DNA of 64,000 nucleotides from the NCBI RefSeq assembly GCF_018141545.1, contig NZ_CP064357.1, forward strand, positions 496,001 to 560,000, written 5' to 3'. Below, piece after piece: positions 4,745 to 28,854 of the stretch (positions are counted from its first letter, which is position 1; every line of letters starts with the position of its first letter). The notes under the pieces were generated by a model. It had not been told where the DNA came from. It was given only the letters and a program-made list of their open reading frames with translations, and searched no databases. The translations under genes and the position numbers were made by a program. The DNA is from Miltoncostaea oceani. Lineage in GTDB: Bacteria > Actinomycetota > Thermoleophilia > Miltoncostaeales > Miltoncostaeaceae.

Positions 4745-5530
4745 TTGATCTCCCGGATGCCCGGCGCAGTCCGTCGTGCCGGACGTGATGAACGACTGGC
4801 GATCGTCGATCACCTCGATGAGCTGCGCCGGCGCCTGATCATCAGCGCCCTCGTTCTCGTCGGAGCCTTCGCCGCGGCCTACGGATTCCGGGACCAGCTG
4901 CTCGAGCTCCTGGAGGCTCCCCTCCCGCAGGAGTTCCGGGACAGCGGCCTGATCACCCTGTCGCCTACCGAGCCGTTCTTCACGACGCTGAAGGTCTGCT
5001 TCTGGGCCGCGATCATCGCCTCGGCGCCGGTCTGGCTCTACCAGCTCTACGCCTTCGTGATCCCGGCGCTCCACGAGCAGTCGCGGCGCTCGATGCTGCT
5101 CGTCGTCGCCGGCGCCTCGTCGCTGTTCCTGGTGGGAGTCGCCTTCGGCTACTACCTCGTCCTGCCGGTCGCGCTCGAGTTCCTGCTGAACTTCGGTGGA
5201 GACAGCTTCCAGACCGAGGTCCGGGCCGGCGAGTACTTCGGCTTCGTGACCACGATGATGCTCGGCACCGGCCTGATGTTCGAGGTCCCGGTCGCGATGC
5301 TCGCGATGGCGCGGATCGGCGTGGTCTCCGCAGAGCTCTTCGTCCGCCACTGGAGGATCGCACTCGTGCTGATCGCGGCCTTCGCTGCGATCCTCCCGGG
5401 AGGCGACCCGTTCAGCATGGTGCTCCTGATGGCGCCCCAGATCCTGCTCTACGGCCTCGGCATCCTCCTCGCCAGGCGTTTCGGCCGCCCGCCGATCTGG
5501 CAGCGCGAGGACGAGGGCGACGAGGCTTGA
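4745..5530 (+). CDS. tatC: Twin-arginine translocase subunit TatC
   Basis: TatC binds twin-arginine signal peptides and forms the receptor core of the Tat pathway for folded proteins in the inner membrane. The 261-residue length is normal. The cytoplasmic N terminus has HLDELRRRL (about residues 21-29), the first periplasmic loop holds SPTEPFFTTLK, and about six hydrophobic segments follow, with FGYYLVLPVAL and MFEVPVAMLAM as typical TM3-TM4 stretches. The start is TTG at 4745; an ATG at 4757 is an alternative. No tatA or tatB gene is nearby. The gene runs against the flanking tRNA genes and converges on a tRNA-Thr half, ending 37 bp from it. A tatC inside a tRNA array is unusual. Confidence 0.92.
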   Translation: MISRMPGAVRRAGRDERLAIVDHLDELRRRLIISALVLVGAFAAAYGFRDQLLELLEAPLPQEFRDSGLITLSPTEPFFTTLKVCFWAAIIASAPVWLYQLYAFVIPALHEQSRRSMLLVVAGASSLFLVGVAFGYYLVLPVALEFLLNFGGDSFQTEVRAGEYFGFVTTMMLGTGLMFEVPVAMLAMARIGVVSAELFVRHWRIALVLIAAFAAILPGGDPFSMVLLMAPQILLYGLGILLARRFGRPPIWQREDEGDEA

Positions 5531-5566
5531 GCGTGGGTGCGACCGTGGCCTGGGTCATGCGACGAA

Positions 5567-5653
5567 AGTCGGCTGCTCTACCAAGCTGAGCTATACCCCC
5601 TCGAGACGGTGATGGGGGCACCAGGCCTCGAACCTGGGACCATCCGATTACAA
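5567..5653 (-). tRNA. tRNA-Thr(TGT) halves in 3'-5' order, unit B (candidate permuted gene)
   Basis: Read on the minus strand, a 3' half comes first (5653-5613: TTGTAATCGG of the anticodon arm, T arm CCAGG/CCTGG, acceptor TGCCCCC, discriminator A), then a 12-nt linker (5612-5601), then a 5' half (5600-5567: acceptor GGGGGTA, D arm, and GCCGACT ending at T33). Joined 5' to 3' the halves give a 74-nt tRNA-Thr with loop CTTGTAA. The acceptor strands pair across the linker. The 5' half continues into TTCGTCG, which pairs with CGAC of its own anticodon stem. It is unclear whether the product is joined and used; a decayed tandem tRNA is the alternative. Confidence 0.45.
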
Positions 5654-5787
5654 GCCTCGGCGGAGGACGACTCCGCGTCTTCGCCCGTCGGCACTGCTCT
5701 TCACTGAGCTACGAGGCTGGCCTGGGCACCGAGGTCGCGCGCCGCCGCCGCCGGGCGCCGCGCGTGATTTACTTCGGTGCCGACGAG
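5654..5787 (-). other. 134-nt structured segment between tRNA-Thr halves
   Basis: This segment lies between a 5' half (ending at 5788) and a 3' half (starting at 5653) of tRNA-Thr, so it may be an intervening sequence or a spacer. It contains two foldable pieces. Bases 5654-5717 close with GCCTCG/CGAGGC and hold a D-arm-like GCTC/GAGC and a T-arm-like GCGGAG/CTCCGC hairpin. Bases 5727-5779 close with CACCGA/TCGGTG on the minus strand. It is too short for a normal group I intron and has no recognised splice motifs. Confidence 0.4.
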
Positions 5788-5874
5788 AGTCGGCTGCTCT
5801 ACCAGCTGAGCTATACCCCCTCGAAGTAAGTGAGTGGGGGCAGCAGGGATCGAACCTGCGACCTTCCGATTACA
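5788..5874 (-). tRNA. tRNA-Thr(TGT) halves in 3'-5' order, unit A (candidate permuted gene)
   Basis: On the minus strand a 3' half (5874-5835: TGTAATCGG, T arm GCAGG/CCTGC, acceptor TGCCCCC, discriminator A) is followed after 14 nt (5834-5821) by a 5' half (5820-5788: acceptor GGGGGTA, D arm GCTC/GAGC, GCCGACT). Joined in normal order they make a complete 73-nt tRNA-Thr(TGT) with one mismatch (27-43). The break is between T33 and T34, the same as in unit B. The 5' half is followed by CTCGTCGGC, able to pair with GCCGA of the anticodon stem. The linker begins CTCAC, like the trailers of intact tRNAs in the array. Confidence 0.45.
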
Positions 5875-5912: not shown

Positions 5913-5986
5913 AGGGGGCACCAGGAGTCGAACCTGACTCTTCCGGGCCCGTTGCCCGGCAGCTCTGCCAACTGAGCTATACCCCT
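5913..5986 (-). tRNA. tRNA-like gene, anticodon undetermined
   Basis: Acceptor (A)GGGGTA/TGCCCC(C), D arm GCTC/GAGC and T arm TCAGG/CCTGG with loop TTCGACT are good, but the first acceptor pair is A-C. The anticodon arm is CCGGG/CCCGG around CAACGGG, shifted by one base, and the loop has no T at position 33. Its acceptor and D arm resemble the tRNA-Thr halves downstream. It may be a decayed tRNA-Thr or a non-translational tRNA-like element. Confidence 0.4.
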
Positions 5987-6035
5987 ACGAGCGGAGCGTG
6001 TTGCTCCGATGATGCGTTCCGCACTACAAACAAGG

Positions 6036-6108
6036 CTCCCCGGGCAGGATTCGAACCTGCGACCTTCGGAGTAACAATCCGCCGCTCTGCCGGCTGAGCT
6101 ACCGGGGA
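6036..6108 (-). tRNA. tRNA-Asn(GTT)
   Basis: Cloverleaf with acceptor TCCCCGG/CCGGGGA, anticodon stem GCGGA/TCCGA (one mismatch), loop TTGTTAC, T arm GCAGG/CCTGC, discriminator G as expected for tRNA-Asn, no CCA. Confidence 0.93.
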
Positions 6109-6149
6109 TCAGTGACGCTGGCAGGCAGCGTCGATGTCATTCACGAACA

Positions 6150-6221
6150 TGAACCGAGAGGGTTTCGAACCCCCGACCTCCCGCACGTCACGCGGGCGCT
6201 CTCCCACTGAGCTACCGGTCC
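6150..6221 (-). tRNA. tRNA-Val(GAC)
   Basis: Cloverleaf with acceptor GGACCGG/TCGGTTC, anticodon stem CCCGC/GCGGG, loop GTGACGT with T33, T arm GGGGG/CCCTC, discriminator A, no CCA. It is the promoter-proximal tRNA of the minus-strand array. Confidence 0.93.
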
Positions 6222-6446
6222 AGGAAAACGGGCCAGGCGCGGCCTCCTAGGTTCTGTCTGTGCCTCTCCCGTCCTCTCGGTTTGGAGCCCGCTGGCCGAT
6301 CCACTCCCCTGCTCGCCTCAGCAGGATCAATGTGGACGCGGCGGCTTTCTCCCTACGGGGGGCCTCTCTTCAGGTGCTTCGGGTCTGTCTCAGGAGGTCT
6401 GGCTCTCTTTCGGTGGGGGTTCGAGGTTGTTTCAGGGCAACAAAAA

Positions 6447-16357: not shown

Positions 16358-17500
16358 GTGGAAGACAACGCTGACAGCGTCCTGATCGCTCATCTCGGCG
16401 ACCTCCATCTGGGGCGTCGCTGGCTCTCGGCTCAAGCCCCGGGTGGAGTGAACCTGCGCGAGTCCGATGTCTACCGAGCCCTCGATGCCGTACTCGAACG
16501 ACTTCTGGAGCAGGACCGTCCCGAGGTCGTGGTGATCGCCGGTGATGTCTTTGACTCGGTCACCCCGAGCACCCGCTCGCGCTCGGCGGCCTTCCGGTTC
16601 TGCCGCGAGCTGCACGACGAAGGTGTCGAGGTGCTGATCTGCGGCGGCAACCACGATCACGCCGCGACCTCGGCGCCGTCTCCCCTCCAGCACCTGAAGG
16701 AGTTCTTCGACTGCCACCTCGCGCTGGTCCAGGACCACGTCGACCTCGCGGGCGTCCGCTTCCACCTGCTCCCTTACCAGACCCTTGCCGGTCTCTCGGC
16801 CGGACGCGATCTCCAGGCGTTCGAGTTCGCGCCCGGCCCGAACGTGCTCGTCAGCCACGCCTACATCTCACACCCCGACCTCGGCGCCGCGCCGGAGAAG
16901 GTCCAGCTCCCGTTGTCGATCGCCGATGACCCGGCCTTCTGCGCGGTGATGCTCGGCCACATCCATCAGCACCGCCGGCTCGGGGAGACCATCTACTACT
17001 CAGGGGCGATCGAGCGCCTGAACATCGGTGAGATCGCCGCGACCCCCGGCTACTGGCTCCACCGGATCGACCGCTCGGGAGCCGTCAGCTCCGAGTCGGT
17101 CGAGATCGGGGACCTGGGCGAGGAGGACCTGCCACGCCAGATGACGTTGATCGAGATCGGCCAGGCCGGCGCAGGGCTCGATGAGCTGCAGCGACGGGTG
17201 CAGATGGCCCTTCGGGCGGAGCCGCGTGAGGGGGCGATCATCCAGATCAGGATCGCCGAGGCCGACGTGGACCTGCGCCAGAGCGCCCACCCGGCCCTCT
17301 GGCGCGGGCTCGCGGACGAGCTCGGGGCGATCCACTGCGACGTCCAGATCCGCACCGAACCGCTCGAGCAGACGCTCGGGGTGGAGATCACCTCCCTGCC
17401 GAGCCGGTTGGAGGAGGGCTTCCGCGACTACCTGGTGGAGAAGGAGCGCCCGGAGCTGGTCGACCTCGCGCTGGAGACGATGGCCGAGGTGTCGCGTTGA
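16358..17500 (+). CDS. sbcD: SbcD/Mre11-type nuclease subunit
   Basis: SbcD is the metallophosphatase nuclease of the SbcCD complex, which trims hairpins and blocked DNA ends. The 380-residue protein has the phosphoesterase motifs in order: HLGDLHLG (about 12-19), AGDVFDS (about 62-68), GGNHDH (about 94-99), SHAYISH (about 163) and GHIHQH (about 196-201), which bind two Mn ions. A capping domain follows. The GTG start sits 9 nt after TAGATT. The stop overlaps the sbcC start by 4 bp (TTGA), so the two are coupled. Phages such as T4 carry the same pair as gp47/gp46. Confidence 0.93.
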   Translation: MEDNADSVLIAHLGDLHLGRRWLSAQAPGGVNLRESDVYRALDAVLERLLEQDRPEVVVIAGDVFDSVTPSTRSRSAAFRFCRELHDEGVEVLICGGNHDHAATSAPSPLQHLKEFFDCHLALVQDHVDLAGVRFHLLPYQTLAGLSAGRDLQAFEFAPGPNVLVSHAYISHPDLGAAPEKVQLPLSIADDPAFCAVMLGHIHQHRRLGETIYYSGAIERLNIGEIAATPGYWLHRIDRSGAVSSESVEIGDLGEEDLPRQMTLIEIGQAGAGLDELQRRVQMALRAEPREGAIIQIRIAEADVDLRQSAHPALWRGLADELGAIHCDVQIRTEPLEQTLGVEITSLPSRLEEGFRDYLVEKERPELVDLALETMAEVSR

Positions 17501-19800
17501 TCATCCGCTACCTCGAGCTGCGCAACTTCCTCAGCCACGAGCACGAGCGCCTGACCATCCCCGAGCACGGGGTGATCCAGCTGGCGGGGAACTCGGGCGC
17601 CGGCAAGTCCTCGCTGATCAGCGATGCCGTCGGCTTCGCCCTCTTCGGCTTCCGGGCGACCCGGGCCCCGAAGGTGGACGAGCTGCGCCGGCTCGACGCC
17701 CCCAGCAAGGCCTTCGGCGTCACCGTCGCCTTCGTCGCCGCTGACGGCACGATTATCGAGATCGAGCGTGGGCTGGATGAGAAGGAGCGGCCCGTCGCCC
17801 GTCTCACGTCCTCAAGCGGCGACCACGCACAGGGGGTGAAGGCGGTCGAAGAGCGGATCCGTGAGCTCTTTGGGGCGATCAACCCCCGCGTCTACTACCG
17901 CGCCTTCGTCTCACGCCAGGACGACATCACCGCCCTGACCGAGATGGAAGGGTCGAAGCGGCGCGACTTCGTCCACCAGATGCTCGGGATCGACTCGCTG
18001 GATGCCGTCGGGGCACGCCTGCGGGCCCGGGAGCGCGAGCACGGCGCGGTCGTGAGGCTGCTGGAGACCCAGGTCGGCGAGGAGAGCTCCGAGCTGCTCG
18101 ATAGGTTGCACCGCGAGGCCGTGACGGGCGCCCAGGACGCCGCCGAGTCCCTGGAGAAGGCGAGCGGGGCTTCCGATTGCGCCCGCAGGGAAGTCGCCGA
18201 CGAGCAGGCCCTGCTCGTCCCGCTGCGCGCTGCCCGGGAGAGGATCGCCGAGGCCGAGCAGAAGGTCGCGGTGGCCGACGCGTCCCTGGCGGGACTGGAC
18301 GCCGAGATCGCCAGGGCCGATCGCCTGATCGCGCGTCGCGCCGAGGCGGAGGCGCTGGTCGAGGGCCTCGAGGATCTCGAGCGCCGGCACGCCCAGGCGA
18401 GCGCAGAGCTCGAGGAGCTGCGCCGCGTCGAGCTGGCCTGCGCAACCCGGTCCCGGATCGGGAGCGAGCTCGAGGGCCTGCTCGCAGCCCGCGCCGCCCT
18501 GGGGGCCCGGATGGGCGATGAGCGCCCCGCCCCCGCGGAGTCCTCCGTCTCCCTGCGCGAGCAGCGCGCTGATCTGGTGGCTCGCCACCGCTCACTGACC
18601 GAGCGACGCGAGGAGATCGCCCTCCAGCGGTCCCAGCTCGCCGATCAGGGGACCTGCTCGCAGTGCCTGCGCGCCCTCGAAGCCCACGATCACGCAACCC
18701 TTGAGAGCACCCTGACCCGGCAGATCCAGGAGGCGGACGACCAGATCGCGGCTTGCGAGCGCGAGGGCGCCGCGATCCGCGAGCGCATCGGCGAGGTCGA
18801 GCTGCTCGAGGCCTCCCGCAGCGACCGGGAGCGGCTCGCCCAGCAGGCAGCTGATCTCGATTCACGGATCTCCGCCCTGCGGCAGGAGGTCGAAGGACTC
18901 CCGGCCGGCGGTGGCAGGCTGGATGACCAGGAGCGGATGCGTTCAGAGGTGGCCGAACTCTCGACCGGGATCGAGAGGGCCCACAAGGCGGCGCGCTGGC
19001 TCATCGACGACCTTCCGGGCCTCGAAGCCGGCCGTGTCCGACTGGGCACCGACGCGGACGCCCTGCGCAGCTCACGTGCGGAGGCGGCAGGCTTTCTCGA
19101 CGGCGCCCCGGATGTCGGGGACCTGCCGCGCCGCGAGCAGGAGCTCGATGCACTCCGCGATCGCGCGACGCGCCTCGAGGTCGAGGCGGCCCATGCGCTG
19201 TCTCGCCGGGATCGGTCCGACGCCGCGGTGGTGGAGATCGAGCGCCGGCGCCTGGAGCGGGCTCGCAGGGAGTCGGAGCTCACCGGCGCCCGGGATGAGG
19301 CCGCGAGACACCGCGACCTCGCCGTCCTCACTGTCGGCTTCCGCAAGCAGGTAACGGCCGAGATCCGGCCGCAGCTCGAGGAGACCACATCAGAGGTCAT
19401 GAGCGCCCTCTCAGATGGCCGGCACCCCCTGCTGCGCATCTCCGAGGACTACGAGATCGAGCTGCGCTCATCCCAGCCGGCGGGCTGGCTGCCGGTGCGC
19501 ATGATGAGCGGCGGGGAGAAGACCCGCGCCAACTTCGCCCTCCGCCTCGCCCTCACGCGGCTGGTGTCCCAGCGGACTGCGTGTCCGATCCGCTACCTCG
19601 TCCTCGATGAGATCTTCGGCTCCCAGGATCCCGACCACCGCTCGCGCATGCTCGACGTCCTGCGACAGGTCCAGGTCTTCTACCCCCAGGTGTTCCTGAT
19701 CAGCCATGTCGGCGACCTGCGCAACAGCGCCGTCTGCGACTGGGTGATCGAGATCTCCGACGGAGCGAGCCCCCAGCGAGCGCGCCTCATCGGCACCTGA
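17497..19800 (+). CDS. sbcC: SbcC/Rad50-type ATPase subunit
   Basis: SbcC is the SMC-like ATPase that holds DNA ends for SbcD. At 767 residues it is shorter than the E. coli protein (about 1,050). The N-terminal Walker A is GNSGAGKSS (about 32-40). Two coiled-coil arms rich in Ala, Glu and Arg flank a zinc hook CSQC (about 387-390). The C-terminal lobe has the signature MSGGEKTR (about 669-676) and Walker B YLVLDEIFGSQDPD (about 698-711). The start is TTG at 17497, overlapping sbcD. Short arms are typical of phage-type versions. Confidence 0.93.
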   Translation: MIIRYLELRNFLSHEHERLTIPEHGVIQLAGNSGAGKSSLISDAVGFALFGFRATRAPKVDELRRLDAPSKAFGVTVAFVAADGTIIEIERGLDEKERPVARLTSSSGDHAQGVKAVEERIRELFGAINPRVYYRAFVSRQDDITALTEMEGSKRRDFVHQMLGIDSLDAVGARLRAREREHGAVVRLLETQVGEESSELLDRLHREAVTGAQDAAESLEKASGASDCARREVADEQALLVPLRAARERIAEAEQKVAVADASLAGLDAEIARADRLIARRAEAEALVEGLEDLERRHAQASAELEELRRVELACATRSRIGSELEGLLAARAALGARMGDERPAPAESSVSLREQRADLVARHRSLTERREEIALQRSQLADQGTCSQCLRALEAHDHATLESTLTRQIQEADDQIAACEREGAAIRERIGEVELLEASRSDRERLAQQAADLDSRISALRQEVEGLPAGGGRLDDQERMRSEVAELSTGIERAHKAARWLIDDLPGLEAGRVRLGTDADALRSSRAEAAGFLDGAPDVGDLPRREQELDALRDRATRLEVEAAHALSRRDRSDAAVVEIERRRLERARRESELTGARDEAARHRDLAVLTVGFRKQVTAEIRPQLEETTSEVMSALSDGRHPLLRISEDYEIELRSSQPAGWLPVRMMSGGEKTRANFALRLALTRLVSQRTACPIRYLVLDEIFGSQDPDHRSRMLDVLRQVQVFYPQVFLISHVGDLRNSAVCDWVIEISDGASPQRARLIGT

Positions 19801-20182
19801 GCGATTCCTCCTGCTCTCCCGGACCCATCCTCGCGGACAGTCCGAGTGCTGACAGGGCCGCGACGTTCGACCAGCTTTCATCCGCACGCCGGGCAGACGC
19901 CCTAGGCCAATTGGGCCCATGTGAGCCGGTGATGCCTGTGGAACAGGCCGATACCGGGATTCTCCTCTAGCCGAACGCCCTCGACGGCCGTTCCGAGGCA
20001 AGAGGGCCTAGCGCATCCTCCCTCTCGTCCGGCCCCGGTCACATCCCGAAGGAAACACCGCTGAAGGCAATCGCCCAGAGGCACCCGGAAGTTCTTGGAA
20101 GGGGTCAGCGCGAAAAGCTGGCGCGGGGTGGTGGTGGTCCTACGATCATGAGCAAGGAACCCTGGGGAGGGGAACGACTCAC
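19801..20182. other. Intergenic region upstream of the first sigma factor gene
   Basis: No gene is supported. TACGAT at 20140-20145 is a likely -10 box, followed by a leader with GGAGGGG 10 nt before the ATG, so this gene, unlike its neighbours, has a Shine-Dalgarno leader. A near-palindrome GGCCAATTGGGCC occurs at 19906-19918. Confidence 0.45.
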
Positions 20183-21235
20183 ATGGCACGAGGTAGAGGC
20201 AGAGCAGACACATCCGGGCAGCAGACTGCTGTTGCACCGCGTGCCACCGAAGTCGTCGAGACGGTCGTCGCCCCGACCCCTGAGGCCACCGCCCACGCCG
20301 AGAACCGCCGGATCATCCGCCAGGCCGAGATGATCATCTGGCGCTTCGAGAGCCGTCGCACGGAGCTGATGCGGGCCAAGGGAGACGCCCTCGCGGACTC
20401 CCACGACCTCCTCGACCTCGACATCAAGGCCGCTGGCATCCTCGAGGCCCGCGAGCAGAGGACCCTCGCCTCCGCCGCCCAGCTCGGAGACGACCGCGCG
20501 CGCCACCTCCTGACCGTGTGCAACCAGCGCGCGATCCACGCCTTCTCCCGAAAGTTCCAGGGCCGAGGCCTCTCACTCGAGGAGCTGCTCCAGGAGGGCA
20601 ACGTCGGCATGCAGACCGCCATCGACCGCTACGACCCCTCGAACCCGGCGAGCTTCCTGACCTACGCCGCCTGGTGGGTCCGTCAGGCGGTCATGCAGGC
20701 CATCGAGCAGAAGGGCTCACAGCAGCGCGTCCCGAGCTACCTCCACCAGGTCCTCCAGCGGACCCAGATCAGCCTGCGCTCCCTCGAGGGTAAGGGCGTC
20801 CACGCCCCCACGCGTCAGCAGATCGTCGACGAGGTCCAGTCGCGCAGCAGCAAGCCGGTCCCCGAGGACCACATCTACACCTCCCTGGACCTGATCGGCC
20901 GGCGCTACGTGTCGCTGGACGCTCACATCGGTGAGGACGACGGCTCGTCGATCGGCGATGTGATCCCGGACGAGCGGATCGACTTCCACGAGGAGATCGA
21001 CGAGGCCGCCCGCACCGGCGCCATCGCCGCCGCCCTCAAGGTCCTGACTCCGCTCCAGCGGACCGTGATCACCCGTCGCTACGGCCTCGAGGGGCACACC
21101 GCGACGCCGGGCATCGAGCTCCAGAAGGAGCTTGGGATGACCAAGGGCTCTCTCGGCAGCACGATCAAGACCGCCCAGACGCGCATGCGCGCGGTCCTCG
21201 AGGACCGCGACGCCCGCGACCTCATCCACTCCTGA
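20183..21235 (+). CDS. Sigma-70 family RNA polymerase sigma factor (short form)
   Basis: The 350-residue protein is a sigma-70 factor without a clear region 1.1. Region 2 is seen at about 135-180 (LLQEGNVGMQTAIDRY, then LTYAAWWVRQAVMQAIEQ), which binds core polymerase and melts the -10 element, and region 4 at about 285-345 (LTPLQRTVITRRYGL and KELGMTKGSLGSTIKTAQTRMR), which reads -35. Region 4 is unusual: the recognition helix lacks the common TRERVRQIE sequence, so it may read its own promoter set. The N terminus MARGRGRADTSG carries the shared RGR motif and is followed by a disordered stretch. It is transcribed on its own and may direct element-specific transcription. Confidence 0.9.
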   Translation: MARGRGRADTSGQQTAVAPRATEVVETVVAPTPEATAHAENRRIIRQAEMIIWRFESRRTELMRAKGDALADSHDLLDLDIKAAGILEAREQRTLASAAQLGDDRARHLLTVCNQRAIHAFSRKFQGRGLSLEELLQEGNVGMQTAIDRYDPSNPASFLTYAAWWVRQAVMQAIEQKGSQQRVPSYLHQVLQRTQISLRSLEGKGVHAPTRQQIVDEVQSRSSKPVPEDHIYTSLDLIGRRYVSLDAHIGEDDGSSIGDVIPDERIDFHEEIDEAARTGAIAAALKVLTPLQRTVITRRYGLEGHTATPGIELQKELGMTKGSLGSTIKTAQTRMRAVLEDRDARDLIHS

Positions 21236-21328
21236 TCAATCAGGTCTCACACCCATACGTCCGACCTCGCGGTCAGGATGTCTGGTCTCAAATCGCGCGC
21301 ACTGACATGACGGGGGTATAGTCGATTC

Positions 21329-23329
21329 ATGGGACGAGGACGGGGAAACACGACCACCGCGCAGATGCGCACACCGGGGGACTCCGGGACGACGGACCCC
21401 TTCCTCGCTGTGACCGGTGACGCTGCCGCGGCGGCGGCGCGCGAGCCCTACTGGCAGCTTCCGAACGACCTCGACATGATCGTCGGGAGTCAGTTCGAGC
21501 GCGAGCACGGTGTCGATCGGGCCGTTGCGACGATGCTCGTCCGTCGCGGTGGGACCTTCGACGACATCTACTCCTACCTGTTCCCGCGCAAGCGCATGGT
21601 CCGCAGCCCGGAGCGGACGGTTCCGGGGATGAATGCGGCGGGCCGCATGGTCGCCGACGCGATCGAGGCGGGAGAGAAGATCGCCGCCTTCGCCGACTAC
21701 GACCCCGACGGGACCACCGCTCTCGAGGCCTTCCGGCTCGGCATCGCCCCCTACATGTCCGACCCCTGCCCGGGCTGCGGCGGCCGCAAGGGCGCCGACT
21801 GCTTCCGCTGCGGGGGCCAGGGCAAGCTCTTCCGGTCCGATCGCTTCCACGTCGGCTACGCGGACGCCCAGCGCGGCTTCGGCCTGACCGACGACTTCGT
21901 GCGCGAGGCCCACGCCGTCGGCGCCAGCATCCTGATCACGCTCGACTGCGGTTCCACCCAGACCCGCCAGGTCGCCCTGGCCAAGAGCCTGGGGATGAAG
22001 GTCATCGTCGTGGACCACCACAACGTGGATCCCGACAACCCGGCCGACCACCACCTGAACCCCCACCTTCACGGGCCGGAGAACAAGGTCAGCCAGAACA
22101 CCGGTGCCCAGCTCGCCTGGAAGCTCGGGGCTGCGGTCCAGATCGCGATCTCGGGCAGGACGCGCGAGGAGCACTGGGGCCGCGCGATGTTCCTCGCGGG
22201 CTTCGGCTGCCGCGCCGACATGGGCTCGACCATCGACCCCGAGCACCGCGCGTTCTTCCGCATCCCGATCGACGGGGAGAAGGAGCGCGATGAGCTGATC
22301 CCGCCCGGTCTCGCACTCCTGTCCGAGCGGATGGGCGAGGACCCGCGCACCCCCGCGGGCGGTGTGCTGACCTCGGCCGCCATGAACCTCGCCAAGCGCA
22401 CGCCGCTGGTCTCGGCCGCGGATGTCGGCGCGCTGCTCGCCTGCGAGTCCAAGGCCCAGGCCGAGCCGCTGGTGGACAGGCTCTGCGCCGCGTACGACCG
22501 GGCCCGCCCCTGGCGGCGCCGCATGCTCGACGAGGCCATCAGCCAGGCCGAGACGTCACCCGACAAGGACCGCGTCGCCAAGGTCATCCTCGATGGTGAG
22601 GAGGGGTTCCGCGACTACGCCGGATACAGCGGCTCGGTCGCCAACGACACCGCCCGTCGCTGCGGCAAGCCGGTGATCTGCTTCGCGCCCAAGGGCGTGG
22701 ACGAGCAGGGCCGGGAGGTCTTCAAGTTCAGCATGCGCAGCGGCCGGGTGAAGCAGCAGATCGGCGAGCTGATCACCAGCCCGGAGATGCGCGCGGCCTG
22801 CCAGCTCGAGCAGCGCGACGAGTCGGGCGAGCTCGTCACCTCCGCCTCGCTCGGTGGCCACGCCGATGTCGTGTCCGGCTCCTGCTACGCCGACAAGATC
22901 GACGAGGTCTTCTCGACCGCCGAGGCCTGGGCGCAGAGCTTCAACCCCTACCGCTGGTTCCCGGAGAAGTGGTCAGGCGCCGACGCCTACCTTCTCGAGA
23001 GGAAGATCCCGGCGGCGCGGTTCCTGAAGCTCGAGGAGCAGGCGAAGCGCCTGGCCCCCTTCGCACCGAAGGACCGCAATCGCAAGCCGAGTGTCAGCGT
23101 CGTCGGCCGGGTCAGCGACCTGGCCCCCGACCCTGACTCCCCCCAGTACTCCAAGGGGGTCATCGAGATCGGCAACGGCATCCGCCGCCCCGTGATGATC
23201 CACACCGACCGAGTGGCCGAACTCCCCTCCGCGGGTGCCGAGTTCGTCCTCGAGCTCGGCGAGGACCGCCCGTTCTTCCTCCGCAACTGGCATGCGCCTG
23301 AGCCCACCGCCTCGGCGGCCGCGGCCTAG
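21329..23329 (+). CDS. RecJ-like DHH-family exonuclease with an inserted zinc ribbon
   Basis: RecJ enzymes degrade single-stranded DNA 5' to 3' in repair and recombination. The 666-residue protein has motif I DYDPDG (about 124-129), TLDCGS (about 208), the DHH motif VDHHN (about 227-231) and a DHHA1-type SLGGHADV (about 508). Between motif I and the next one lies CPGCGGRKGADCFRCGGQGK (about 149-168), four cysteines in a DnaJ-like CxxCxG pattern, which is not usual in RecJ. TATAGT (21317-21322) ends 6 nt before the ATG, so the mRNA should be leaderless. The N terminus MGRGRGNTT shows the shared RGR motif. The stop overlaps the convergent foldase gene by 4 bp. Confidence 0.88.
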   Translation: MGRGRGNTTTAQMRTPGDSGTTDPFLAVTGDAAAAAAREPYWQLPNDLDMIVGSQFEREHGVDRAVATMLVRRGGTFDDIYSYLFPRKRMVRSPERTVPGMNAAGRMVADAIEAGEKIAAFADYDPDGTTALEAFRLGIAPYMSDPCPGCGGRKGADCFRCGGQGKLFRSDRFHVGYADAQRGFGLTDDFVREAHAVGASILITLDCGSTQTRQVALAKSLGMKVIVVDHHNVDPDNPADHHLNPHLHGPENKVSQNTGAQLAWKLGAAVQIAISGRTREEHWGRAMFLAGFGCRADMGSTIDPEHRAFFRIPIDGEKERDELIPPGLALLSERMGEDPRTPAGGVLTSAAMNLAKRTPLVSAADVGALLACESKAQAEPLVDRLCAAYDRARPWRRRMLDEAISQAETSPDKDRVAKVILDGEEGFRDYAGYSGSVANDTARRCGKPVICFAPKGVDEQGREVFKFSMRSGRVKQQIGELITSPEMRAACQLEQRDESGELVTSASLGGHADVVSGSCYADKIDEVFSTAEAWAQSFNPYRWFPEKWSGADAYLLERKIPAARFLKLEEQAKRLAPFAPKDRNRKPSVSVVGRVSDLAPDPDSPQYSKGVIEIGNGIRRPVMIHTDRVAELPSAGAEFVLELGEDRPFFLRNWHAPEPTASAAAA

Positions 23330-24372
23330 CCGCGCTGCTGGAGCGCGGGGTTCGGGGGCGGGGGCGGAAGCTCGTTCGTACCACCGCTCATGCTGGGCGG
23401 CGTGTAGAGGTTCGCCGGCGGCAGCAGGCCCTCCGGGTCGTCGATGCTCGCCTCGGCACCGCTGCGCGCGCTGTCGAGGAACTCGCGCCAGAGCGACTGA
23501 CGCTTCTCCTCGCGCAGGCCGGCGCGGATCTCGACCGTCGACTGCTCGAAGCTCTTGCCGCGCTCGGGGACGAGGTCCTCGATCACCGAGACCGCCAGGA
23601 AGCGGCTCTCGGCCACCCTGAAGGGGCCGACGACGCTCCCGGTCCTCGCGCCATGGATCGCGCGCACGACCTCGGGGGTGTATGAGCCCGGCACGACGGC
23701 CTGGATGCCTCCGACACCAGTGGGGGAGCCGGCGCCCTCGCTGCTCGAGGCGTAGACCTTCTCGAAGTCCTCGCCCGCGCGCAGGCGTGCGATGAAGCGA
23801 TCCGCCTCCGCGGAGGTGGTGCCCGCGACGACACGGACGTTGCGGAACGTCGGGGTTGCGAGGCCGGCGCTGTTGCGCTCCCACCAGGCGCGCATCGCGC
23901 GCTCGGAGATGTCGGCCGGGTTCTCGGCCAGGAGCTCGTCCTGGATCGCGCTCTGGAGTTGCGCGATCTCGATGGTGCGCTTCTGCAGGTCCCCCAGCTC
24001 GGTGTAGGGCGTCTGGAAGATCGCCTGGGCGAGGCGCTCGCGGTCGTTGCCGGCGACGGAGATGCCTCGCTTCTCGGCCTCCTCGAGGATCAGAGCCTCG
24101 ATCAGCAGCTGGGTGGCCGCGGCGTCGCGGATCTGCCGCGCATCCACCGGCGCGGGGAGGTTCGACTGGTCCGAGGGCGTCAGCTCGGCCGCCCGGCCGG
24201 CGATCTCCTCCGCCGTGATCTGCCGGCCGGCGATCGCGAAACCACCCTCGGGGGCGCCGCCACTCCCAGTCCCACCGGTCGTCACGAAGACGACTCCGAT
24301 GGCGAAGGCGACGACGATGACGGTGATGGGCGCGAAGATGATCAAGCGCCGTGGGGAGAGTGATCTCAGCAT
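23326..24372 (-). CDS. Membrane-anchored PpiC/SurA-like foldase
   Basis: The start is placed at ATG 24372 (MLRSLSPRR), where TATCAC lies 6 nt upstream; the frame is open further. The 348-residue protein has one N-terminal membrane helix (about 10-32, FAPITVIVVAFAIGVVFV). Next is a SurA-type helical chaperone region (about 45-175, QLLIEALILEEAEKRGI) and a parvulin-like prolyl isomerase region (about 180-290) with the markers FEKVYASSSEGAGSPTGVGG and GSVVGPFRV. The tail is Pro-rich. It should help folding of exported proteins outside the membrane, which fits with tatC and yidC in the same window. Confidence 0.8.
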   Translation of the reverse strand: MLRSLSPRRLIIFAPITVIVVAFAIGVVFVTTGGTGSGGAPEGGFAIAGRQITAEEIAGRAAELTPSDQSNLPAPVDARQIRDAAATQLLIEALILEEAEKRGISVAGNDRERLAQAIFQTPYTELGDLQKRTIEIAQLQSAIQDELLAENPADISERAMRAWWERNSAGLATPTFRNVRVVAGTTSAEADRFIARLRAGEDFEKVYASSSEGAGSPTGVGGIQAVVPGSYTPEVVRAIHGARTGSVVGPFRVAESRFLAVSVIEDLVPERGKSFEQSTVEIRAGLREEKRQSLWREFLDSARSGAEASIDDPEGLLPPANLYTPPSMSGGTNELPPPPPNPALQQRG

Positions 24373-24525
24373 GCCCCGGTGATAGCGGACCACCCCTGTC
24401 CGGCGTGCTCTTTCCCTGACGGTCTCAGGTGCCGGTACTGACAATCCCGCTGATAGAGCAGGTGATCAGCCATCTAGGGACGGCTTCAGCGGCGCTTTGC
24501 TCCGCCCGTCCTATGTTCGCTCGCG

Positions 24526-25098
24526 ATGGCACCTCATCTCATCATCGGCATCGACCCCGGACTGACATCCGGCGGCGTCGTGCTGCTCGAAGGCCCGACA
24601 GAGCGCGTCATCGCCGCCAAGTCCCTGGTCGCCAGGATCCCGCGCCTGGAAGTGCCACTCGGCGACAAGGCCTTCACGGCCGCTGAGCGCCACGCCGCCC
24701 ATCAGGCGGACGCCGTCGGAGCCGCGGTCTCCCAGATGCGTGCCGAGCACGGCGAGATCGTGGCGATCGGGATGGAGTCCTTCATCGATCAGCCGCACCG
24801 GGCCCGGACCGCGCGCCACATAAAGGAGCGGTGGAAGACCCCCCTGGCGATCGGCCACATCTGCGCCCGCCTGCACTCCCTCGGCTTCAGTTCCGCCGAG
24901 GGCACCCTCGTCTTCCAGGACCCCTCGATCCTCGGCCAGTTCGCGCGAGAACTCGGCGCCCTCGAAGCACGCCCGCGCACCAGCTCCGCACAGGTCGTCT
25001 GCGCCGGCGACCACCTACTGACAAACGACCACCTCCGGAAGGCCTGGGCTCACGGCGCATGGCTGAACATCCGGATCTCAAAGGACGGTACACCGTGA
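24526..25098 (+). CDS. RuvC-like RNase H-fold nuclease
   Basis: The 190-residue protein starts with [18 protein letters not shown], the RuvC-type first strand with its catalytic Asp, and has IGMESF (about 84-89), matching the second acidic position; late acidic residues occur near [14 protein letters not shown]. This suggests a Holliday junction resolvase or related structure-specific nuclease acting on recombination or replication intermediates. It is not a close match to chromosomal RuvC. TATGTT ends 8 nt before the ATG. Its stop overlaps the next start by 4 bp (GTGA), coupling it to the sigma factor. Confidence 0.78.
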
Positions 25099-26180
25099 AG
25101 AAGGCTCCGACGGTTGCTGGTGAGTACGTCGAGCAGCTGCCTGACGAGCTGCGCGACCTCGTTCTGATCGGTCGGGCCGAGGGCAGCCTCGAGGCCGATG
25201 ACATCTCCAACCTGCTGACCAAGCACAAGGTCGCCGACGAGGAGGTGGATGCGTTCTACGCCTACCTCAAGCAGGAGGGCATCGAGGTCAGCGACGACAT
25301 CAAGCCGGCGAGCGACCGGGAGATGGAGCTGGTCGGCCCCGCGCTGCCCGACAGCACCCGGCTCTACCTGAACGGCATCCGTCGCACCCCGCTGCTCAGT
25401 GCCGCCGAGGAGCGCCGTCTCGCCCAGCTCAAGGACCAGGGCGACGAGCGCGCCAAGGCTCACCTGGTGGAGGCGAACCTGCGCCTGGTGGTCTCGATCG
25501 CCAAGCGGTACACGGGCCACGGCCTGGACCTGATGGATCTCGTCCAGGAGGGCAACATGGGCTTGATCCGCGCGATCGAGAAGTTCGACTGGAGCCGCGG
25601 CTTCAAGCTGTCCACCTATGCGACCTGGTGGATCCGCCAGTCGATCTCGCGCGCGATCGCCGACCAGGGCCGGACCATCCGGATCCCGGTGCACAAGGTG
25701 GAGGTCCTCAACCGCCTGCGGCGCACCACGCGTCAGCTGACGGCCGAGCTCGAGCGCGACCCGACGATCGAGGAGATCGCCGTCCGGATGGGCGTCGACG
25801 TCGAGGAGATCCAGCACCTGCGCCAGATCAACCAGGAGACCGTCTCGCTCGAGCAGCGGATCGGCGACGGCGAGACCGAGCTCGGCGACCTCCTGGCCGA
25901 CGACGGCGCCGACGAACCTGACTCGATCGCGGTCGACGGGGCCTTCGAGGACGCCGTCGCCCAGGTCCTCGACGGCCTGAACGAGCGCGCCGCCACGGTC
26001 ATCCGGCTGCGCTTCGGCATCGGCGGCGAGGAGCCGCGCACCCTCGAAGAGATCGCCGTCAAGTTCGGGATCACCCGTGAGCGGGTCCGCCAGATCGAGC
26101 AGCGCACCCTCGCGCACCTGAAGGGTTCGGACGACACCGCTCACCTGAGGGAGCTGCTCGAGGAGATCGGCGAGGTCTGA
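25095..26180 (+). CDS. RpoD/SigA-like sigma-70 factor with region 1.1
   Basis: I chose GTG at 25095 because it overlaps the upstream stop (GTGA) and follows AAAGGA; ATG at 25059 is an alternative. The 361-residue protein has a region 1.1-like N terminus ([19 protein letters not shown]), region 1.2 ([18 protein letters not shown]), region 2 ([17 protein letters not shown], then [20 protein letters not shown]), region 3 ([12 protein letters not shown]) and region 4 ([20 protein letters not shown]). This is group 1 or 2 architecture. It could be a second vegetative-type sigma or, if this is chromosome, the primary one; the context (RuvC-like upstream, YidC-like downstream) is not the common rpoD neighbourhood. 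Confidence 0.92.
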
Positions 26181-26187
26181 GGGCGAG

Positions 26188-26901
26188 ATGGAGGGGCCAC
26201 TGACATTCCTGGGATGGCCCCTTCGTTTCGTCGTCGACGGCGCGCAGGCGCTCGGGTTCGGGCCTGCGGGCCTGATCATCCTCGTCGTCCCCCTGATCCG
26301 GATCCTGCTCTACCCGATCGCCCATCGACAGGCGGCGGCCCTGGATCGGCTCTCGGCCCTGAAGCCGGAGATCACACGCATCCACACCGATCTCGCCGGT
26401 GACCGCGAGGCGCTCCAGCGCGAGCTCGTCGGCGCCTATTCCACGGCGCGGGTCTCCCCCTTCGGTCCGCTCCTGCTGATCGTCCCCCAGGCCCTGGCGC
26501 TCGTGAGCCTCTACTTCGCGGTCGCCCCGGAGTTCGGCGGGAGCTCATCCGATCTCGGACTCCCCCCGCTCGCCGAGCCGGCGCGGGTGTCCCTCATCGG
26601 CTTCGGCCTGGTCGCCCTCTACATGGCCGGCTTCTGCGGGACCCTCATCCTCTCCGCCCGGCGGTTGTCGGGGGAGATCGGACTCGCGACCCGGATCCTC
26701 GCGATCGCCGTCGCCGCCGGCGCCCTCGTGGCCCTCCCGATCACCTCGGTCGGCCTGGCGCTCTACCTCGCCGCGACAGCGGTGTGCTCGCTCGCCCAGG
26801 CGGCGCTCCTCTATCGCGAGTTCGGTCCCGGCGGCGGTGATCACCTCTCGGGAGATGTCGGGGCGCCACCCGCGTCACCCATCTCCTCAGAGGCCCGCTG
26901 A
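26188..26901 (+). CDS. YidC/Oxa1-family membrane insertase-like protein
   Basis: The protein (237 residues) matches the YidC core: GLIILVVPLIRILLYPIAHR as TM1, a cytoplasmic hairpin with LSALKPEITRIHTDLAGDRE, then AYSTARVSPFGPLLLIVPQA as TM2 and three more hydrophobic segments. YidC inserts membrane proteins and helps SecYEG. It begins 7 bp after the sigma gene and is probably cotranscribed. Chromosomal yidC normally lies beside rnpA and rpmH, so this looks like an extra copy. Confidence 0.82.
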   Translation: MEGPLTFLGWPLRFVVDGAQALGFGPAGLIILVVPLIRILLYPIAHRQAAALDRLSALKPEITRIHTDLAGDREALQRELVGAYSTARVSPFGPLLLIVPQALALVSLYFAVAPEFGGSSSDLGLPPLAEPARVSLIGFGLVALYMAGFCGTLILSARRLSGEIGLATRILAIAVAAGALVALPITSVGLALYLAATAVCSLAQAALLYREFGPGGGDHLSGDVGAPPASPISSEAR

Positions 26902-26970
26902 CACTGCGGTAACGGCGGCTCCGGAGCGAAGTCTGCCCTTGGCCGACGACGGGATTGCCATGCTCGCGAC

Positions 26971-28854
26971 GTGGCTTTCGCACATGGTTACGTCTCCCTG
27001 GACGAGCTGCTGGACTGGGTCCGCGCCCACCCTCTCGGCGACGGTCGCTTCGTGCCCGTCTGCATCTGGGGCAGCCGCGGTATCGGCAAGTGCGTCGCCC
27101 CGGACACACCGATCGTCTTGAACGGCGAGCGGATCACCATCTCCGCGGCCTGGGATCGCTGGGCGGGGGAGCCGAGGCCCGACGGAGACGGCTTCTGGGC
27201 CTCCTCGACGAAGCAACTTCGGACCGTCTCTGTCGACGGTGATCTGCGACTGGCCTCCGGCGAGGTGGTCCACTTCTACCGCCAGCAGGTCAGCGAACCC
27301 GGGCGGACGGTCGTGCTGGAGTCCGGCGAGAGACTCACGATGACCCGCGCGCATCGCCTGCGCACCCTCTCGGGTTGGAGAAACGACCTCCGGGTCGACG
27401 ACCTCGTGGCGGTGCCGGCACCCTCCGTCTCAGCGCGCCCGCGCAACGCCGGGCACATCGAGACACCCCCTCACATCGAGTGGCGTCGGATCGCCGCGGT
27501 GGAGGAGATCCGCCTGGAGGGCTGGGTCTACGACCTCGAGGTGGCGGAGCACCACAACTACCTGGCCGCCGGAATCGTGACCCACAACACCCAGGCGCTC
27601 AAGCAGTACACGGTCGAGAGGGGCATCGGCCTGCGCGTCATCCAGCCCGCCCACCTCTCCCAGGGCTCGGATCTGGTCGGCATCCCCTTCATCGACCAGG
27701 AGACCCGCAAGACCGTCTACGCCCTCCCGGACCGTCTCCCCAAGCCCGACGACGAGGATGTGCGCCGCGGCGGCATCCTCTTCCTCGACGAGATCAACCG
27801 CGCGAACCTCGCCGTCCTGCAGGGCCTGATGGAGGTGATCGGCGAGGGGACCATCGGCCAGTCCGGCTGGGAGCTCCCCGAGGGCTGGATGGTCGTCGCC
27901 GCCGCGAACCCGAACATCCCGGGCTACGACGTCAACACGATGGACGACGCCATGGTCGGCCGGATGCTCCACTACTCGCCGGGCTTCTCATCGGCGACCT
28001 GGACTCGCTGGGCGACCGAGAACAACGTCGCCCGGTCGGTCGTCAACTTCGTGCTCCAGAACCCGGACCTGGTGGACGGCGGTGAGTCCGAGCTGCCGCA
28101 GGAGGTCCGACCCACGCTGAACCCGCGCACCGCCTACTACCTGGCTTGCCTCTATGAGGCCGGTATGCCACTGAGGGTCCTCGACGTGATCGCGAACGGC
28201 CTCTGGGGAGATGAGGCCGCTCAGAACTTCCTCACCCATCACCTCGACACCGAAGCCCCGCTCTCGGGTGGACAGATCCTCCGCGGCGGCTGGCAGCCGA
28301 CCGTCGACCAGTGGGTCGCCGGCGACCGGTTCGACCTCCTGCGCGCCTCGAGTGAGCTCCTGATCTCGATGCTGTCCGGCAACCAGGCCGTACGCTCGCG
28401 CGCCGCCGAGGGCACCGCGATCTGGATGGCCTATCTCCCGCAGAGCCTCTTCGTCGAGATGGTCGTCTCGATCGGCGAGGCCTGCCCTGAGTGGCTGCCG
28501 GTCATCCTCACCTACGCCGAGACCGGAGTCGGCGCACGCATGCCGCGCAATCGCTCGATGCTCCGCCGGCCCGCTCAGCGCGAGATGGTCCAGCAGCGGC
28601 AGGGTCGCACCGAGCGTCGGCGCGTCGAGGAGAGCGCACGCGAGGAGCTCGTCGCCCTGCCGCCGGCGCGCTCGAACGGCGGCCCGGAGATCCCCGGACC
28701 CGACGATGCGGTCGAAGCTCCCCCTGCGCCTCCCGCGCCCGCCGGCGCCGGCTCGATCCGCCCGCTCGGGCGAGATGACAGCGCCGGCGCCGACGACGAC
28801 CTGCCGTTCACCCGACCCGACACCAGCCAGTTCCAGCTCCCTGACTTCGACTGA
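26971..28854 (+). CDS. MoxR-type AAA+ ATPase interrupted by a mini-intein
   Basis: The 627-residue precursor contains a MoxR-like AAA+ ATPase. Its Walker A is GSRGIGK at 34-40 and resumes with T207 after an intein of 166 residues (41-206). After splicing the P-loop reads GSRGIGKTQ and the protein has about 461 residues. Walker B is GILFLDEINRAN (about 262-273) and sensor 1 is VVAAANPN. The C terminus is a disordered Pro/Ala/Asp-rich tail. MoxR ATPases remodel metal-containing or structural protein complexes, often with a VWA-domain partner, which is not seen in the window. The start is GTG at 26971. Confidence 0.88.
   Translation: MAFAHGYVSLDELLDWVRAHPLGDGRFVPVCIWGSRGIGKCVAPDTPIVLNGERITISAAWDRWAGEPRPDGDGFWASSTKQLRTVSVDGDLRLASGEVVHFYRQQVSEPGRTVVLESGERLTMTRAHRLRTLSGWRNDLRVDDLVAVPAPSVSARPRNAGHIETPPHIEWRRIAAVEEIRLEGWVYDLEVAEHHNYLAAGIVTHNTQALKQYTVERGIGLRVIQPAHLSQGSDLVGIPFIDQETRKTVYALPDRLPKPDDEDVRRGGILFLDEINRANLAVLQGLMEVIGEGTIGQSGWELPEGWMVVAAANPNIPGYDVNTMDDAMVGRMLHYSPGFSSATWTRWATENNVARSVVNFVLQNPDLVDGGESELPQEVRPTLNPRTAYYLACLYEAGMPLRVLDVIANGLWGDEAAQNFLTHHLDTEAPLSGGQILRGGWQPTVDQWVAGDRFDLLRASSELLISMLSGNQAVRSRAAEGTAIWMAYLPQSLFVEMVVSIGEACPEWLPVILTYAETGVGARMPRNRSMLRRPAQREMVQQRQGRTERRRVEESAREELVALPPARSNGGPEIPGPDDAVEAPPAPPAPAGAGSIRPLGRDDSAGADDDLPFTRPDTSQFQLPDFD
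27091..27588 (+). other. Mini-intein in the ATPase P-loop
   Basis: The inserted 166 residues begin with CVAPDTPIVL (block A, Cys1), include GRTVVLESGERLTMTRAH (block B with T-x-x-H), and end with WVYDLEVAEHHNYLAAG (block F) and VTHN followed by extein Thr. All splicing residues (Cys1, TRAH, His-Asn, Thr+1) are present. There is no LAGLIDADG or HNH endonuclease, so it is a splicing-only mini-intein. Confidence 0.9.

Follow-up and report, generated by a model that had tools for sequence, protein, structure and literature searches.

On the minus strand of the window (the whole 64,000-nt stretch of DNA analysed here), we found two units in which the halves of a tRNA gene stand in permuted order as 3' half, linker and 5' half, at positions 5874-5786 and 5652-5565. 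This permuted layout at 5565-5874 is real, and in the searches made it was found nowhere beyond these two units. We read the units with moderate confidence as relics of interrupted tRNA genes, with insertion as the favoured route; a function as permuted tRNAs is unproven and not favoured. Since intact genes elsewhere in the genome can serve the same purposes, and no known joining machinery was found in it, insertion scars are likelier than working permuted tRNAs.

Layout of the halves and their surroundings

Read along the minus strand, the first unit begins with 3' half A (5835-5874; tRNA positions 34/36-73, TGTAATCGG...TGCCCCCA), which carries the complete T arm and the 3' acceptor strand and was detected as an orphan T arm. 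A 14-nt linker (CTCACTTACTTCGA, 5821-5834), homologous to the 12-nt linker of the second unit, leads into 5' half B (5786-5820, GGGGGTA...GCCGACTCT), which ends at 5788 if read as Thr and at 5786 if read as Lys, with CGTCGG following. A segment of about 134 nt (5654-5785), which includes a GCACCGA...TCGGTGC hairpin as well as a degenerate tRNA-like sequence, separates B from 3' half C (5613-5652, starting at 5653 or 5652), which again reads TGTAATCGG...TGCCCCCA and is preceded by GGCT. The second unit is completed by its 12-nt linker (TCACCGTCTCGA, 5601-5612) and by 5' half D (5565-5600, GGGGGTA...GCCGACTTT, then CGTCGCATGACC), which ends at 5567 in the Thr reading and at 5565 in the Lys reading.

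Every half is complete, with no tRNA-required base missing in any of them. Neither ARAGORN nor Rfam at gathering thresholds reported an intact tRNA at the halves as they stand, and all four combinations of rejoined halves tried (in the Lys reading) were called by ARAGORN as tRNA-Lys(CTT/TTT). The units thus combine a 3' half upstream of a 5' half, a short linker and completeness once rejoined, as in permuted tRNA genes, and two claims made from the sequence alone, the unusual permuted order and the complete tRNA on rejoining, were borne out. The 15-nt 5' end GGGGGTATAGCTCAG would not be expected by chance (0 in 100 shuffles). When about 100 kb of C2, the contig that holds the window, was scanned for T arms and D arms, clear orphan tRNA arms were found at these halves only, together with one chance-looking T arm.

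The units lie in a tRNA cluster whose upstream part includes intact tRNA-Asn(GTT) and tRNA-Val(GAC) genes (6034-6222, minus strand), and on which a TatC gene (4745-5530, plus strand) converges. Two degenerate tRNA sequences, both on the minus strand, accompany the halves. One (5913-5986; 35.4 bits), of the same family as the halves and called Arg(ACG) by ARAGORN, lies 38 nt from 3' half A and has an abnormal anticodon loop without U33 and an A1/C72 mismatch. The other (5652-5718; 31.7 bits with RF00005) lies within the 134-nt segment and has neither a proper anticodon arm nor a proper T loop. The acceptor, D and T stems of both are mostly good, and their anticodon arms are abnormal. Pairing of the locus-2 leader CGAGGCTTG with the downstream CAAGCCTCG, which falls in the coding end of tatC, was considered a chance match. 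Further along, the window encodes in a row (16358-28851) SbcD/SbcC-like proteins, two sigma-70 factors, a RecJ-like exonuclease and an AAA protein with an intein-splicing domain.

tRNA identity and divergence of the two units

The position of the join cannot be fixed from the sequence alone. A join at 33/34 makes both units Thr(TGT), and one at 35/36 makes A+B Lys(CTT) and C+D Lys(TTT). The sequence-only reading had all four halves ending at the same anticodon-loop position; this holds to within positions 33-36, because the break is not placeable more finely. Its assignment to Thr(TGT) corresponds to one of the possible joins and was rejected as a secure identity, the join not being unique and the acceptor stem and discriminator base being unlike those of tRNA-Thr in this clade. 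The clade's tRNA-Thr genes have C2-G71, C3-G70 and T73 in 8/8. Among the tRNA-Lys genes collected here, G2-C71 and A73 were present in 19/19, A31-U39 in 18/19 and a G27.A43 mismatch in 17/19. With G2-C71, G3-C70, A73, G27.A43 and A31-U39, the halves are Lys-like and not Thr-like within the clade.

When the anticodon was masked, phage tRNA-Lys (Mycobacterium phage Anthony, Virus Rctr197k) and phage tRNA-Ile gave the best phage matches over the full length; the Thr-joined sequence was a good match to the tRNA-Thr of phage PaBG. In a simple profile comparison, the tRNA body gave its highest score with the clade's Met-annotated tRNA(CAT) genes, some of which are probably Ile2, followed by Lys, with Thr far behind. 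The isotype is therefore ambiguous, and Lys appears more likely than Thr, short of proof.

Over 95 columns that span the 3' half, linker and 5' half, the units share 87% identity. This homology begins at TG/TAATCGG and ends at CGTCG, which are the anticodon-loop break points. Ending there, it fits tandem copies of a tRNA plus spacer that received different inserts better than duplication of a permuted gene, because in the latter case the flanks should have been copied too.

Six substitutions and one insertion in the D loop separate the tRNA parts of the two units. Among the substitutions, a pair forms a compensatory change at 49-65, one alters the wobble base (C34/T34) and the rest are at free positions. 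Of random sets of six substitutions, only 0.15% keep all pairs and conserved bases (p 0.0015), and the linker has diverged more than the tRNA parts (5/14 versus 7/74, Fisher p 0.02). The spared pairs with the altered wobble base, and likewise the faster linker, speak for working permuted genes, except that the constraint may be older than the break. The pattern shows that constraint acted while the copies diverged, and it does not discriminate whether they were already permuted by then. Given that all pairs and conserved bases are intact in both rejoined copies, either the breaks are recent or the halves are still constrained.

Probable insertion scars and the possibility of working permuted genes

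Under the favoured reading, the locus would have started as a short run of tandem tRNA genes from a single family, Lys-like and resembling phage tRNAs, that was interrupted several times within the anticodon loop and then lost its outer halves and most of the inserted DNA. What remains would be 3'a-linker-5'b-insert remnant-3'b-linker-5'c, with B and C as the halves of one original tRNA parted by the 134-nt remnant, A as an orphan 3' half and D as an orphan 5' half. The agent would most likely have been site-specific integration. Among the alternatives that the sequence-only reading had itself offered, the best fit is an insertion with orphan halves on either side, or else recombination debris.

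For tyrosine integrases of actinobacteriophages, the tRNA-Lys anticodon loop serves as an attachment site; some of these phages leave the tRNA unreconstructed and supply a substitute (PMC10865867). The present locus resembles these sites of tRNA-dependent lysogeny in that a Lys-type tRNA is cut in the anticodon loop and not rebuilt and in that the insert carries tRNA-like sequence, and differs from them in the small insert of about 134 nt, the lack of a tyrosine integrase on the contig, the lack of a core common to all junctions and the tandem repetition (PMC10865867). The scar reading is also supported by the degeneracy of the neighbouring sequences at 5986-5913 and 5718-5652, the latter within the insert, and by orphan tRNA 3' halves at C1:2913938 and in a genome of the same genus (G003).

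Several observations count against insertion scars, however. Read by eye, the junctions (B GACTCTCG, D GACTTTCG, C GGCTTGTAATC and A CACGTGTAATC) show no core common to all four, CT/CTT being shared by B, C and D only. No tyrosine integrase gene was detected with PF00589 in or near the insert or anywhere on C2, all ten PF00589 genes of the genome being on contig C1. The intactness of all tRNA pairs and conserved bases in both copies would be rare under random drift, and Lys is the sole amino acid for which C2 has no intact tRNA.

The last of these points also favours the strongest rival, in which the units are two working circularly permuted tRNA-Lys genes (CTT and TTT), a reading that we consider unlikely. 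Their transcripts would fold so that acceptor, T and D arms form, the 12-14-nt linker would be removed by RNase P and 3' processing, and some nuclease and ligase would join the anticodon loop between 35 and 36. Both units do rejoin to a complete tRNA-Lys, as two isoacceptors, and the linker length is inside the 1-74 nt range of known permuted tRNAs (PMC3978253). The permuted tRNA genes of red and green algae and of archaea likewise have the 3' half first, halves that rejoin to a full tRNA and a short linker between discriminator and G1 (PMC3978253, PMC3218864). They also have a bulge-helix-bulge (BHB) motif and a splicing endonuclease, neither of which was found here (PMC3978253, PMC3218864). 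The present break, unlike theirs, falls inside the anticodon (33-36), and intact substitutes are present.

Searches of the genome detected neither a tRNA splicing endonuclease (PF01974, with control matches in four archaea) nor RtcB (PF01139, with control matches in nine genomes), and folds showed no BHB or BHB-like leader-trailer helix at the junction. Flank hairpins, proposed from the sequence alone for all four halves, did not outdo random flanks in A, C or D (p 0.14-0.25); only the 6-bp hairpin of B was unusual (p 0.007).

The genome comprises three contigs (4.54 Mb, 100% complete), and the window is part of C2 (816 kb). By TatC, its named relatives are Thermoleophilia, including Miltoncostaeaceae. 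C1 has a complete tRNA set, including intact Lys(CTT) and Lys(TTT) genes, which tells against a need for permuted ones. A second and almost full set, of about 37 intact tRNAs, lies on C2; it covers all amino acids but Lys and is also without Leu(CAA, TAA, TAG), Val(TAC) and Ser(CGA, GGA). No orphan halves for the missing Leu, Ser and Val tRNAs were present in the roughly 100 kb of C2 searched. An intact tRNA-Thr(TGT) gene, which the sequence-only reading had suggested looking for, was found on both C1 and C2. To judge from the assembly, C2 is presumably a replicon of the same cell and not a co-binned contig (contamination estimate 3.87%). If, as the binning implies, C1 and C2 belong to one cell, the split copies are not needed there. 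The C2 set includes an Arg(GCG) tRNA, which the chromosome does not have.

Further permuted tRNAs were sought with R1, a covariance model built from artificially permuted tRNAs, in 399 genomes from the class and 396 from the phylum. The units themselves scored 83.4 bits (A+B) and 75.0 bits (C+D), values inflated because both were among the 24 training sequences. Nothing comparable was found in these approximately 790 actinobacterial genomes among the higher-scoring matches inspected; these were pairs of intact tRNAs in tandem, single tRNAs preceded by a weak half, or loci lying outside any intact tRNA, and several of the last bore a Y RNA signature. The search of related genomes, another suggestion of the sequence-only reading, thus gave no second case of the layout. 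Exact-pattern scans of GTDB species contigs and viral contigs, which may omit the window's own genome and nearest kin, likewise gave nothing, and tblastn with the window proteins yielded no informative related plasmid.

The idea of a working permuted tRNA therefore fared poorly: intact Lys and Thr(TGT) genes exist, no endonuclease, RtcB or BHB-like helix was found, and no relative with the layout came to light. That a bacterial replicon carries both tRNA-Lys isoacceptors as permuted genes, matured by a novel nuclease-ligase pathway, seems improbable to us. If it were true, these would be, as far as could be found, the first permuted tRNA genes in bacteria, and their function would imply a new way of joining RNA that needs neither RtcB nor a splicing endonuclease, serving genes on a second replicon with an otherwise nearly full tRNA set. 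If the units are relics, as we prefer, they show bacterial tandem tRNA genes losing their outer halves through hits in the anticodon loop, and such loss is a plausible route to permuted tRNAs.

The permuted, two-piece tmRNA offers a precedent in bacteria for a permuted tRNA-like gene, its transcript being processed to two pieces (cited in PMC10085705). The present units differ from it in having no tag reading frame and no G3-U70, and in having a normal D arm and anticodon stem.

Remaining readings and tRNA-like loci elsewhere

Unequal crossing-over, duplication and deletion in the tRNA cluster, acting without a site-specific integrase, could also have left such debris. Within 430 nt there are three tRNA-like paralogues from a single family, and two further neighbours are degenerate, as this reading would have it. 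It leaves unexplained why all the breaks are confined to the anticodon loop, and we regard it as doubtful.

It is very unlikely that the units are not tRNAs but a Y RNA-like (YrlA) RNA, or some other structured non-coding RNA, whose tRNA-like domain is permuted. The tRNA-like domain of YrlA (RF02553) has the same order of T arm, closed acceptor stem and D arm, and the model scored 38.0 and 30.9 bits on the two units. These scores are far under its gathering score of 69, and any permuted tRNA would score alike. The genome had no TROVE/Ro60 match (control matches in Deinobacterium) and no RtcB match, and the Ro60-linked flank motifs (GGGCCGAAGCG, GGTTAYC, CAYGACC) were absent from the units as a set. 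Unlike YrlA, moreover, the units keep an anticodon stem and loop.

An assembly error is highly improbable in a complete three-contig genome in which two diverged copies share the layout and the contig's tRNAs are otherwise intact. A group I intron with B and C as exons was rejected, Rfam giving no intron match and the insert being only about 134 nt.

Permuted tRNA-like domains with the conserved flanks GGGCCGAAGCG..GGTTAYC..CAYGACCGC were observed at five loci in other Thermoleophilia (L141:5045-5195, L130:1775-1925, L128:897-1047, L138:1022-1180 and L123:947-1105), which we take as Y RNAs below the cut-off of the Rfam YrlA model. Where scores were reported, the Y RNA-like loci of the class, some of which adjoin a Ro60 gene, reached 34.6-38.7 bits against the cut-off of 69. 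The L141 element lies directly 5' of a TROVE/Ro60 gene, which is followed by RtcB; by eye, TROVE-like reading frames follow the L130 and L138 elements. Some of the five loci sit within tRNA arrays.

A match at C1:1192905 was dismissed as a chance match in coding sequence. Elsewhere on C1, a tyrosine integrase gene (G000:C1:667507-668724) lies close to the chromosomal tRNA-Lys(TTT), consistent with an element integrated there. The orphan 3' half on C1 (G000:C1:2913938-2913996) derives from an initiator tRNA-Met whose intact gene is about 5.2 kb away, and resembles an attachment-site remnant; the orphan 3' half in G003 is that of a tRNA(CAT). In another genome (G031, L048:1300-1800), an intact tRNA(CAT) gene has duplicates of its 5' and 3' parts around it, the extra copies being broken off in the anticodon arm or the variable-loop region.
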